The translations under genes and the position numbers were made by a program. From assembly GCF_001296025.1 (NCBI RefSeq), contig NZ_LJHV01000008.1:310001-374000 (forward strand): DNA of 64,000 bases, given 5' to 3'. The DNA is from Porphyrobacter sp. AAP60 (GTDB lineage Bacteria > Pseudomonadota > Alphaproteobacteria > Sphingomonadales > Sphingomonadaceae). Position 1 is the stretch's first letter, and each line of letters begins with the position of its first letter. A model generated the notes under the pieces. The model had not been told where the DNA came from and did not search any database. It saw only the letters and a list, made by a program, of their open reading frames with translations. Below are positions 16,080 through 41,183 of this stretch, piece after piece.

Positions 16080-17146
16080 TGCTGCCCGCAGGCTCCACCA
16101 TCGGGATTTTGGGCGGCGGCCAGCTTGGCCGGATGATGGCCGTGGCCGCCTTGCAGCTGGGCTACAGGGTGATCGGCTTTGCGCCTGAAGGCGACAATGT
16201 CGCAGCCGAAGCCTGCTCCGCCTTCATCACCGCCGATTGGGACGACAGCGCTGCGCTGTCGGAATTGGCGGCGCGCTGCGATGTGGTGTCATGGGAGTTT
16301 GAAAACGTGCCGCTGGCCACGGTCGCCGCCCTGCCGCAGGCGCTGCTTGCCTGCCCCTTGCGCGCGTTAGAGGTTGCGCAGGACCGTTTTCACGAGAAAC
16401 AATTCGTCGCAGACCTTGGCGGCGTGCCCGCGCCCTATGCCAGGGTTGAAAGCGGGGAGGACTTTGACGCCGCAATCATCCGCATCGGCACGCCCGGCAT
16501 CCTCAAGACCGCGCGCGATGGCTATGACGGCAAGGGCCAGTGGCGGGTCGGCTCGGCGCTCGAAGCTGGCGGCGTGCGCTTTCCCGGCGCGCCTTGCGTG
16601 TATGAAGGCTTCGTCACTTACGAGACTGAATTTTCAGTGATTCTGGTGCGCGGCAAGGACGGGGCGATCAGGTTCTGGGATTCCACCGCCAACCTTCACG
16701 AAGGCGGGATGCTGGCCCGCTCGATCCTGCCCGCAGGCGCTCTGGTCGAGGCGCAAGTGCCCGCCGCGCGCGAGCTTGCGGCCCGCACTGCCGATGCGCT
16801 GGGCTATGTCGGGGTGCTGACGCTGGAGTTCTTCGCCACCCGCAACGGCCCCGTTTTCAACGAGATGGCCCCGCGGGTGCACAATTCCGGCCACTGGACG
16901 ATCGAAGGCGCGGCCACCAGCCAGTTCGAAAACCATATTCGCGCCATTGCCGGTCTGCCGCTGGGCGGCACCAAGACCCGCTTTGCCGCGATCGAGATGC
17001 GCAATATCGTGGGCGATGCGTCCTTGACCGCGCACCAGATCCTGTCCGAGCCGGGCGAGCCGCACCTGCACCTTTACGGCAAGCGCGAAGTGCGCGAGGG
17101 GCGCAAGATGGGCCACGTCACCCGTGTGAGCCACGCCATTCGATGA
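16079..17146 (+). CDS. purK: 5-(carboxyamino)imidazole ribonucleotide synthase
   Basis: 355-residue ATP-grasp enzyme. STIGILGGGQLGRMMAVAA is the nucleotide-binding start and ILKTARDGYDGKGQWRV the ATP-grasp lysine loop. TLEFFATRNGPVFNEMAPRVHNSGHWTIEGAATSQFENHIRAI holds the Mg-binding Glu/Asn. Makes N5-CAIR from AIR, bicarbonate and ATP, feeding PurE. The ATG overlaps the purE stop (TGATG), so purEK are translationally coupled. Confidence 0.95.
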   Translation: MLPAGSTIGILGGGQLGRMMAVAALQLGYRVIGFAPEGDNVAAEACSAFITADWDDSAALSELAARCDVVSWEFENVPLATVAALPQALLACPLRALEVAQDRFHEKQFVADLGGVPAPYARVESGEDFDAAIIRIGTPGILKTARDGYDGKGQWRVGSALEAGGVRFPGAPCVYEGFVTYETEFSVILVRGKDGAIRFWDSTANLHEGGMLARSILPAGALVEAQVPAARELAARTADALGYVGVLTLEFFATRNGPVFNEMAPRVHNSGHWTIEGAATSQFENHIRAIAGLPLGGTKTRFAAIEMRNIVGDASLTAHQILSEPGEPHLHLYGKREVREGRKMGHVTRVSHAIR

Positions 17147-38921: not shown

Positions 38922-39334
38922 TTCATTTCTCTCGCATCGCCCGGTGCTGCGCCCGCATTCTGGTCTGCTGCATCACCCGGACGGTTTGCTTCGCTTGAAG
39001 CGAACGTGACACCGAAGACTTTAGATTGCCCTAAAGCATCAGGGTTAATGTCCGGTTCGCTTTCATCAATCAGTGCGAAATAGCTGGCGGCGGCATCGCC
39101 GAAGCTGGCAGACGCGACTTCGATCTGCGCTTGCGATTCGTTGCGCATCAGCAGCCGCAAATCACGCGCGGCATTCAATCTTGCGGTGATTTCGCTCCAT
39201 TCCACGGCCCGTAGGGCATCGCCGGCCCGCCGCGGGCCACGCGCTTCGAAGCGCCCGGCGGCACTTTCTCCATGACGGAAACCGCCCGCAAGAGCGCGTG
39301 ACGAGGCGGAAACAGGATTCGCTTTTTCGAACAT
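38918..39334 (-). CDS. hypothetical protein translationally coupled to sciP
   Basis: 138 residues, no signal peptide or membrane helix. The middle, [47 protein letters not shown], looks helical; the ends are low-complexity and acidic. It is the first gene of the two-gene unit with sciP (ATGA overlap). Function unknown; the coupling suggests a cell-cycle or motility link. It diverges from mnmA. Confidence 0.65.
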
Positions 39335-39479
39335 GACGCCGAGTCATAAGGCGCGCTCGTCAAGATCAGGTAAAACTGCCATTTACCCAAGCTTAGGAAA
39401 AGTGCTGTCCCGTTGGTCAGCCTTTCATTGGCGGCACTGGCGAAACCGGGCGGCAATCGCTATAGGCACAAGCATTCCC

Positions 39480-40667
39480 ATGACCATGCCCACTCTTCTT
39501 GACGCCGGCCCACTGGCCGCGCTCTCCTCCGGACCTGCGCTCGATGCCGCCGCGCTGTTCGATCTGCCGCGTGCCGCAGCCGAATGCCGCATCGTCGTGG
39601 CGATGAGCGGCGGGGTGGACAGTTCAGTGGTGGCCGCGCTGGCCCATGCCAGCGGCGCGGAAGTGATCGGCATCACGTTGCAGCTGTATGATTATGGCGC
39701 AGCCACGGGGCGCAAGGGCGCGTGCTGCGCGGGCGACGATATTCGGGATGCCCGCGCCGTGGCCGACAGGCTGGGCATCGCGCATTATGTGTTCGACCAT
39801 GAAAGCGCTTTTCGCGAAGATGTGGTCGAACAGTTTGCCGACGAATATCTCGCCGGGCGCACGCCGGTGCCCTGCATTCGCTGCAATATGGGGCCGAAAT
39901 TTACCGATCTGTTCCGCATGGCGCGCGAACTGGGCGCGGATTGCCTTGCAACCGGGCATTATGTGCGCCGCGTTATGACCCCTGATGGCCCGCAACTTCA
40001 CCGCGCCTTCGATCCGGCACGTGACCAGTCCTATTTTCTTTATGGCACCACCGAGGCGCAGCTCGATTATCTGCGCTTTCCGCTGGGCGGGATGCCCAAG
40101 CCGCAGGTGCGTGAGCTTGCCGAAGCAGCGGGGCTGAGGAACGCCGCCAAGCCGGATTCGCAGGACATCTGCTTTGTGCCCGATGGCAATTACGCCAAGA
40201 TCGTCACCAAGGTGCGGCCCGAAGGCGCGGCGCCAGGCAATATCGTCCACGCTGCCACCGGCGCGGTGCTGGGTGAGCACAAAGGCATCGTCCACTTCAC
40301 CGTCGGTCAGCGCAAAGGGCTGGAGATCGGCGGCCAGCCGGAACCGCTCTATGTCATCGGGCTTGATGCGGCATCACGCGAAGTGCGCGTCGGCCCCAAG
40401 CGGATGCTGGCAGTGAGCGCGGCGCGGGTGACCGAGACCAACCGCATCGGCCCGCTGGGCGATGAGCCGCTTACTGCCAAGGTGCGCAGCATGGCCAAAC
40501 CGGTGCCGGTGACACTGGAAGGCACACCGGGAGATGGCGCGGCGGTCACGATCCGCTTTGCACAGCCCGAATATGGTGTCGCCCCCGGGCAGGCGGCGGT
40601 GATCTATGCCGGGGATAGGGTGATCGGCGGCGGATGGGTCGATTCGACCGAAAAAATGCCGGGTTAG
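39480..40667 (+). CDS. mnmA: tRNA-specific 2-thiouridylase MnmA
   Basis: 395 residues. PP-loop [15 protein letters not shown]; catalytic Cys in [13 protein letters not shown] and Cys in [29 protein letters not shown] and the C-terminal beta-barrel. Thiolates uridine 34 of Glu, Gln and Lys tRNAs. Start taken at ATG 39480 (39486 is also possible); the extended N-terminus [28 protein letters not shown] precedes the PP-loop. No strong ribosome binding site is seen. Confidence 0.93.
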
Positions 40668-40734
40668 ACCCCCGCCAGGTCGCGCCAGACCCCGCTTAGA
40701 CCCCTGCTTGCCTGCGCTTGACCCTGATGGGAGC

Positions 40735-40776
40735 AATGTTTCACGTGGAAGCGAAGCTCTACGAAGTAGAAACATT
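40735..40776. other. interrupted parS-like site
   Basis: AATGTTTCACGTG (40735-40747) and AAACATT (40770-40776) would join into AATGTTTCACGTGAAACATT, the core of the palindrome around the site at 1239, if the 22 bp between them were removed. The insert is two small palindromic blocks, GAAGCGAAGCT then CTACGAAGTAG. Read uncut, TGTTTCACGTGGAA still matches 14 bases of a 16-base parS variant, so it may bind ParB weakly. Intergenic, between mnmA and the next gene. Confidence 0.65.
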
Positions 40777-40784
40777 CGGGTGCT

Positions 40785-41135
40785 TTACCCCTCCCACTGC
40801 TCCAGCACGCAGCCGTAACCCTTGCGATAGGTGGCCGTCGCCCCGGCAACCAGGGGGAAGCGCGCAGTGACGCTTTTCGTCTCGGCATCCTCGACCAGCG
40901 TCACAGCTTCCATCCCGGCCAGCTTGTCCTTGGCGCAATCATCAAGGCTGCGCCCGGCGACAAAGCGGCACGAACACCCCACCCTTGCCGAATAGGCCGA
41001 AGCAATGCTGCCATAGCCGTTGATCGGCTCGCGGAAGGCCCACACGGCTGTGCCCAGCCCCAGCACGATGATTGCCAGCAGCCACAAGCCCCAGCGCGGG
41101 CGGCCGGTGGTTGCAGGAGAGTGCGATTTTGCCAT
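40785..41135 (-). CDS. membrane-anchored protein with Cys cluster, unknown function
   Basis: 116 residues. One N-terminal membrane helix (GLWLLAIIVLGLGTAVWAF, about 16-34). A periplasmic part has VGCSCRFVAGRSLDDCAKDKLAGMEAV, i.e. Cys-Ser-Cys plus another Cys, and later YGCVLEQW. The Cys set could form disulfides or bind metal. Start ATG 41135 preferred (six codons downstream of another in-frame ATG). It diverges from the serine hydrolase gene by 48 bp and may be functionally paired with it. Confidence 0.65.
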   Translation of the reverse strand: MAKSHSPATTGRPRWGLWLLAIIVLGLGTAVWAFREPINGYGSIASAYSARVGCSCRFVAGRSLDDCAKDKLAGMEAVTLVEDAETKSVTARFPLVAGATATYRKGYGCVLEQWEG

Positions 41136-41183
41136 TGCCAAGCCCCATTGCAAAACCCGACTGCATCGGGAATTGAGGGCGCG

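Follow-up and report, generated by a model that had tools for sequence, protein, structure and literature searches.

The interrupted parS site downstream of mnmA

The window, a 64-kb stretch of DNA (G000:C29:310001-374000 in genome coordinates), contains at 40735-40776 a parS palindrome that is interrupted by 22 bp and lies between the 3' ends of two convergent genes. The upstream neighbour is mnmA, which encodes a tRNA 2-thiouridylase (39333-40667, + strand; ORF as listed, named from Pfam, its true start possibly lying further in), and the convergent neighbour is an unnamed ORF of 122 aa (40785-41153, - strand) that matches no Pfam family. On the + strand, the left arm AATGTTTCACGTG (40735-40747) comprises one half-site together with the central CACGTG, and the right arm is AAACATT (40770-40776). 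They flank the 22-nt insert GAAGCGAAGCTCTACGAAGTAG (40748-40769, + strand), by which the 16-bp parS palindrome is broken. The insert holds two mini-hairpins of the + strand, designated P2 (AGC-GAA-GCT with a GNA loop, 40750-40758) and P3 (CTAC-GAA-GTAG, 40759-40769).

A sequence-only reading of this DNA had described the same split palindrome with two mini-palindromes in its insert and had claimed that removal of the insert recreates an intact site. These claims were borne out: without the intervening 22 bp the arms give the 16-bp palindrome TGTTTCACGTGAAACA, they read when joined like the uninterrupted parS at 1237-1256 of the same window (no strand assigned; perfect 16-mer at 1239-1254), and homologous uninterrupted parS sites are present in relatives. 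Three parS matches at up to 3 mismatches were found in the window against 0.10 expected per shuffled window, and the insert extended by the four bases that follow it, at up to 3 mismatches, had an expectation of 0.00 in shuffles. The same genome encodes ParA and, beside it, a ParB in which the N-terminal, HTH and C-terminal domains are all present (Pfam). parS is a centromere-like site in the available parts of two earlier reports (PMC7022226, PMC5098823); the arms described here are parS but split by 22 nt.

Another dispersed repeat, built from TTAGACCCC / CCAGACCCC units, was observed just after mnmA at 40662-40713 of the window; similar stretches are present at other places of the genome and in related genomes, some of them at polA. 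A parS-like sequence with 3 mismatches, GTTTTCACGAGAAACA, lies at 16386-16401.

A family of short inserts

A further copy of the 38-bp unit, differing at a single position, lies at G000:C29:71288, and the unit is also present in other genomes. Scanning named genomes with an exact degenerate pattern gave 17 matches, of which 14 belong to the family (12 in records of Porphyrobacter, Erythrobacter or Erythrobacteraceae and 2 in an uncultured alphaproteobacterium); the three others (L079, L086 and L093) look like chance matches. A covariance model was built from 21 aligned copies and used to search 114 Erythrobacter/Porphyrobacter genomes, under filters by which weak matches may be missed. It found 43 matches in 26 genomes, and 39 copies in 25 genomes were kept after each match had been read. 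Those dropped were two uninterrupted parS sites (G012 L134 and G096 L136), a doubtful match of 27 bits (G075 L135) and G082 L121; the irregular copy L119 of G016 was retained among the 39. The G082 match, of 28 bits, has an insert-like core GGAAGCGAAGCTGTGCAAAGCACAA with no recognisable parS arms and is either a chance match or a copy outside parS.

Bearer genomes contain one to three copies, and the 39 inserts measure 22 nt (17 copies), 24 nt (17), 25 nt (3), 23 nt (1) or 21 nt (1). Split sites are also found within the origin-proximal parS cluster. In a wider-family sample of 298 genomes the model matched in three, one of them from another genus (G153, L260), where a diverged 21-nt copy lies in frame in the parS of rsmG and has CCGC-AAA-GCGG as its second hairpin. 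The element is thus a dispersed family of 21-25 nt in parS that is confined almost entirely to the Erythrobacter/Porphyrobacter clade. Carriage on plasmids, phages or viral contigs was not observed, with no family match among PLSDB plasmids, none for one exact degenerate pattern among IMG/VR viral contigs, and phage records giving just partial matches of 29 bases (E 0.06) in 8 mycobacteriophage records.

Some copies are of interest on their own. The related genomes G096, G001 and G102 have in common a 25-nt insert with a longer second hairpin (L116, L118 and L133), which reads CTGACGCACGTCAG in two of them and CTGACGTACGGCAG in the third. In G118 (L128/L263) a split parS lies next to parAB, between parB and a convergent ORF, and is the third place of the origin cluster to be affected.

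One point of entry in parS

All 39 kept copies lie at TGTTTCACGTG^AAACA, directly after the eleventh base of the 16-bp parS, with 0-2 substitutions per arm. In 21 copies the 11-mer TGTTTCACGTG is unchanged, the others departing from it by one or two bases, and AAACA is exact in 30 of the 39. When the C-type insert was searched alone in 61 genomes at up to 3 mismatches, 8 matches were obtained, 6 inside parS arms and 2 chance-like, the latter both at 3 mismatches; reversed controls gave 5 matches. Similarity falls outside the 20-bp core. When 23 non-orthologous copies were compared in pairs, the identity per column was 0.23-0.37 over the 12 bases before the core; on the downstream side it was 0.35-0.42 for the five bases next to the core and 0.22-0.31 farther out. 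No target-site duplication is present at the polA and mnmE-mnmG junctions, where the 24-nt insert starts with GAAG and ends with CAC; inserts ending in G leave an ambiguity of 1 nt. A miniature inverted-repeat element (MITE) was rejected as a classification, these junctions displaying neither of the target-site duplication and terminal inverted repeat by which MITEs are recognised.

Filled and empty sites

Comparison between species shows that parS was already present at rsmG, mnmE-mnmG and polA when the insert entered. In rsmG the parS is part of the coding sequence and is translated as NVSRETF or a variant of it. Among 52 genomes, taken from 108 with a match and made up of 45 with RsmG at least 76% identical and 7 more distant ones, 50 have no insert and two (G030 and G099) carry an in-frame insert of 24 nt. 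Both bearers also lack one codon just upstream of the insert, and a common origin of their two inserts was not rejected on the rsmG gene tree (AU p 0.42). The mnmE-mnmG region was readable in 50 of the 52 genomes and holds a split parS in five (G073, G090, G102, G125 and G126); here an identical junction is filled in G102 and empty in G096, with 10 and 5 identical bases outside the 20-bp core. At polA, the sequences of G095 (Erythrobacter oryzae, from its identity with record L089) and G121 match over 571 and 547 bases at 89%, their lengths differing by the 24-nt insert. The filled and empty pairs found so far are all between species, and no insertion event within a species has been seen. At the mnmE-mnmG locus of G012 (L143), about 1 kb has entered beside three parS copies; judged by eye, this stretch contains what looks like a Fic-type gene with the motif HPFxEGNGR, and a small ORF lies upstream of it.

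At the locus of the window itself, 56 of 61 genomes matched and 30 were taken as mnmA loci. An uninterrupted parS lies 52-134 nt past the gene in five of them (G015, G016, G021, G024 and G030), a split parS in two (G000 and G003), and 23 have no parS-like site at up to 2 mismatches in the stretch examined. The sequence-only reading had proposed this alignment as a search for an intact parS, which is present in relatives; its idea would have failed had all relatives shared the split arrangement, and the five uninterrupted loci show that they do not.

Hairpin structure of the insert

In the first alignment, of 21 copies, 7 of the 15 paired positions had changed on both sides, and 90.9% of cells were able to pair compared with 83.7% in shuffles. 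The covariation score was 0.222 against 0.112 in shuffles, none of 500 reaching the observed value, in a test in which related rows can exceed shuffles without any structure. Further pair types were not above shuffles, 101 of 500 reaching the observed number. Three pairs of P3 are changed on both sides in some copies, giving the variants CTAC/GTAG, CTGC/GCAG, GTGCC/GGCAC and GTGGC/GCCAC, and P3 was recovered independently by RNAalifold, which pairs the 5' half (the P2 region) differently. In P2, the middle pair shows double changes from G-C to A-T or C-G, and the loop is GNA in 35 of the 39 copies. These substitution patterns argue strongly for maintenance of P3 by compensatory changes and more weakly for that of P2. 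For the copy in the window, the lowest-energy fold of the DNA is not the two-hairpin form (-6.2 versus -2.1 kcal/mol).

Distribution over the species tree

The tree of the mnmE-mnmG-rsmG region covered 49 genomes; it was made by a quick method that left 15 of 46 inner branches open, and the bearers G031 and G083 as well as three short rows are absent from it. On this tree the insert is spread patchily at several loci (mnmA, rsmG and polA). The bearers at a given locus are often not sisters, as at mnmA (G000 and G003), rsmG (G030 and G099), polA (G012, G015 and G095) and mnmE-mnmG (G073, G090 and G102). Other copies are common to near relatives, namely G125 and G126, G096 with G001 and G102, and G065 with G118. 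The patchy pattern could also be explained by old insertions followed by losses, or by horizontal transfer of short tracts.

In 61 genomes, inserts were borne by 15 of the 28 with at least 5 exact parS and by none of the 33 with fewer (P 5e-7), an association that is confounded by clade since the genomes with at least 5 exact parS are largely one clade. The RAYT domain (PF01797, Y1_Tnp) was searched in the 114 genomes and matched in 7; no match was found in G000 or G003, and among the 25 bearers only G012 had one, which was partial.

Dispersed parS over the chromosome

Many parS sites are dispersed over the chromosome in this clade. Exact sites number 52 in G000 and 52 in G003, and from 0 to 47 in the other genomes counted (61 genomes in all). 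In the complete chromosome of G003 (3,090,363 bp), 45 exact parS lie outside the origin cluster, and the sign of the GC skew, a noisy measure from 20 sampled stretches, changes near 0.95-1.09 Mb (origin) and 2.65-2.79 Mb (terminus). In this one complete chromosome examined the sites are depleted near the terminus, where a zone of 679 kb contains 1 exact parS; the probability of such a span over one site is 0.009, for a zone picked after the data had been seen, and that of the largest single gap between parS is 0.096. Among G003 sites at up to 1 mismatch, 7 of 8 are non-exact in the terminus zone versus 4 of 48 elsewhere (Fisher P 1e-5), and with the canonical variant TGTTCCACGTGAAACA counted as intact and the origin cluster excluded the proportions are 6 of 8 versus 3 of 47 (P 7e-5). 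A simple purpose-made gene predictor was applied around 18 dispersed parS: convergent genes flank 8 of them and co-directional genes 7, the other 3 fall within predicted ORFs, and none is flanked by divergent genes.

Consequences for ParB binding

Both arms are canonical in 20 of the 39 split sites, compared with 251 of 262 uninterrupted sites of the origin cluster in 45 genomes, a comparison that mixes origin and dispersed sites. For the origin-cluster count, seven outer genomes were omitted and a simple text rule served to skip split sites. The difference is marginal when only the origin cluster is considered, 6 of 8 split sites having canonical arms versus the same 251 of 262 (P 0.051). The lower canonical share of the split arms is consistent with a loss of constraint. 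The possibility of a recently inactivated parS, raised in the sequence-only reading, is partly supported by this comparison.

In 36 of the 39 copies the insert starts with GAA, which recreates the GTGGAA of the canonical half-site. The left arm and the insert start together read TGTTTCACGTGGAAgC, identical to canonical parS at 14 of 16 bases and at 15 of 16 in the ACC variants, and weak binding of ParB is therefore possible. Half-parS sites are bound by the ParB of Pseudomonas aeruginosa in the available part of PMC10419367. An altered ParB geometry, as had also been proposed for this site, or a constant spacer of two turns is unlikely because insert lengths vary from 21 to 25 nt.

Origin and spread of the insert

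Taken together, we consider it probable that a 22-nt two-hairpin element has been inserted into parS, and that it represents a dispersed element of very small size by which the invaded parS is weakened or inactivated. As parS is multiplied over the chromosome in this clade, many targets are available to it. How it moves is a more tentative matter. It may be a non-coding element of 21-25 nt that multiplies at one exact bond of parS by way of a folded single strand, its GAAnC start partly rebuilding a ParB half-site. Such an element would be copied from a parS-embedded copy into another parS, and donor and target might be brought together by the clustering of parS sites by ParB. The intermediate would likely be a folded single strand, either single-stranded DNA, given the GNA loops, or RNA. 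GNA or GNNA loops closed by at least two G-C pairs form extraordinarily stable DNA mini-hairpins, according to the available part of PMC4686876, and for this reason single-stranded DNA may be preferred over RNA. The resulting split site would be heading to decay, with ParB either bound weakly by the half-site that is left or no longer bound.

The same distribution might also result from ectopic gene conversion, in which an old split parS was copied onto others by recombination or template switching between identical arms; no dedicated mobility would then be needed, and the hairpins would be incidental or have a local role. This is an unlikely explanation but one that several observations suit. 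The kept copies are found only between parS arms, up to 52 parS repeats are present per genome, no transposase candidate was found (RAYT being the sole type sought), and the one-codon change that the rsmG bearers G030 and G099 share just upstream of the insert is what a conversion tract could leave. However, the shared arms measure just 13 and 7 bp, making up the 20-bp core beyond which similarity falls, and arms of this length are short for RecA recombination. The maintenance of hairpin pairs by double changes also speaks against it.

That the split site is a functional parS variant under selection, with special ParB binding through the half-site or the near-site TGTTTCACGTGGAAgC, appears improbable. 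The half-site recreated by the GAA start and the binding of half-sites by the P. aeruginosa protein (available part of PMC10419367) would agree with such a role. It is opposed by the variable length of the insert, by the canonical state of both arms in just 20 of 39 copies and by the patchy presence over the tree, and the half-site is not better kept than the rest, since substitutions per base are alike in the left and right arms (0.049 and 0.051).

A transcription terminator or an RNA hairpin between convergent genes is very improbable. The position between two gene ends and the RNA fold of the + strand of the window copy (-12 kcal/mol, z -3.2) would suit it, but copies also occur within the coding sequence of rsmG, a simple scan of 40600-40900 found no terminator-like site (a G+C-rich stem followed by a T run), and no Rfam family was matched, the best match having 8 bits against a cut-off of 50; an intrinsic terminator and a known Rfam RNA were rejected on these grounds. 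Finally, unrelated arms flanking 22 random bases by chance, for which nothing speaks except the shortness of the right arm, are ruled out by the 39 homologous copies and by the filled and empty pairs (polA).

Relation to known elements

The small dispersed repeats (SDRs) of cyanobacteria are about 20-27 nt long, dispersed, restricted to one clade and folded into hairpins with compensatory changes, and one of them, SDR5, occurs only within the HIP1 palindrome. They are said to have been described in Nostoc and relatives by Elhai et al. (2008, Genome Res). The two-hairpin inserts resemble them by a length of 21-25 nt, by 39 dispersed copies in 25 genomes, by compensatory changes in P3 and by filled and empty sites, here between species. 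Unlike SDRs, by description rather than by sequence comparison, they have alphaproteobacterial hosts, parS as target, few copies and in-frame copies in rsmG. By analogy, SDRs would be the nearest kind, the element working most like an SDR aimed at parS, and it is filed as a member of no known kind.

Rickettsia palindromic elements are inserted in frame in coding genes at varied places and are about 100 nt or longer. The insert is likewise palindromic and in frame in a gene but differs by its 21-25 nt and its single target sequence. Insertion sequences that target REP palindromes are gene-bearing transposons. Some insertion sequences enter REP palindromes specifically (PMC1525189, available part), and the insert shares this entry into a repeated palindrome but is too short to code.

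REP and REPIN sequences, as far as the available parts of PMC3116915 and PMC3733652 describe them, are similarly short, palindromic and dispersed with compensatory changes in their hairpins. Unlike them, the consensus hairpins have no GTAG or CGTC tag beside them (by eye), there are 1-3 copies rather than many, the target is fixed in another palindrome, and this genome has no RAYT match. A RAYT-driven REP was rejected for the lack of a match in G000 and G003 and the presence of the domain in just 7 of 114 genomes.

No report of inserts in parS was found among the top-ranked titles and abstract openings of the literature on parS of Sphingomonadales or Erythrobacter, dispersed parS, parS-targeting mobile elements and SDRs. 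In its available part, PMC4059872 mentions parS for plasmid clusters only.

Implications

The distribution of parS in G003 resembles that of Noc sites, and terminus-depleted parS may hint that ParB has a role across the nucleoid. In the usual picture parS is near oriC (PMC5098823, available part). The 52 chromosome-wide sites depart from it and raise the question whether ParB also acts along the whole nucleoid.

The split sites and their intact counterparts in relatives form a natural series of disrupted centromere sites from which it may be learned which of the many parS matter. If the element moves, it would be near the lower size limit of mobile elements, and its mechanism would be directly testable because its target is single, short and well understood. 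If the proposed spread through a folded single strand is true, the element would count as one of the smallest mobile elements with a specific insertion site and as a parasite of the bacterial centromere, in a clade whose parS sites extend over the whole chromosome.
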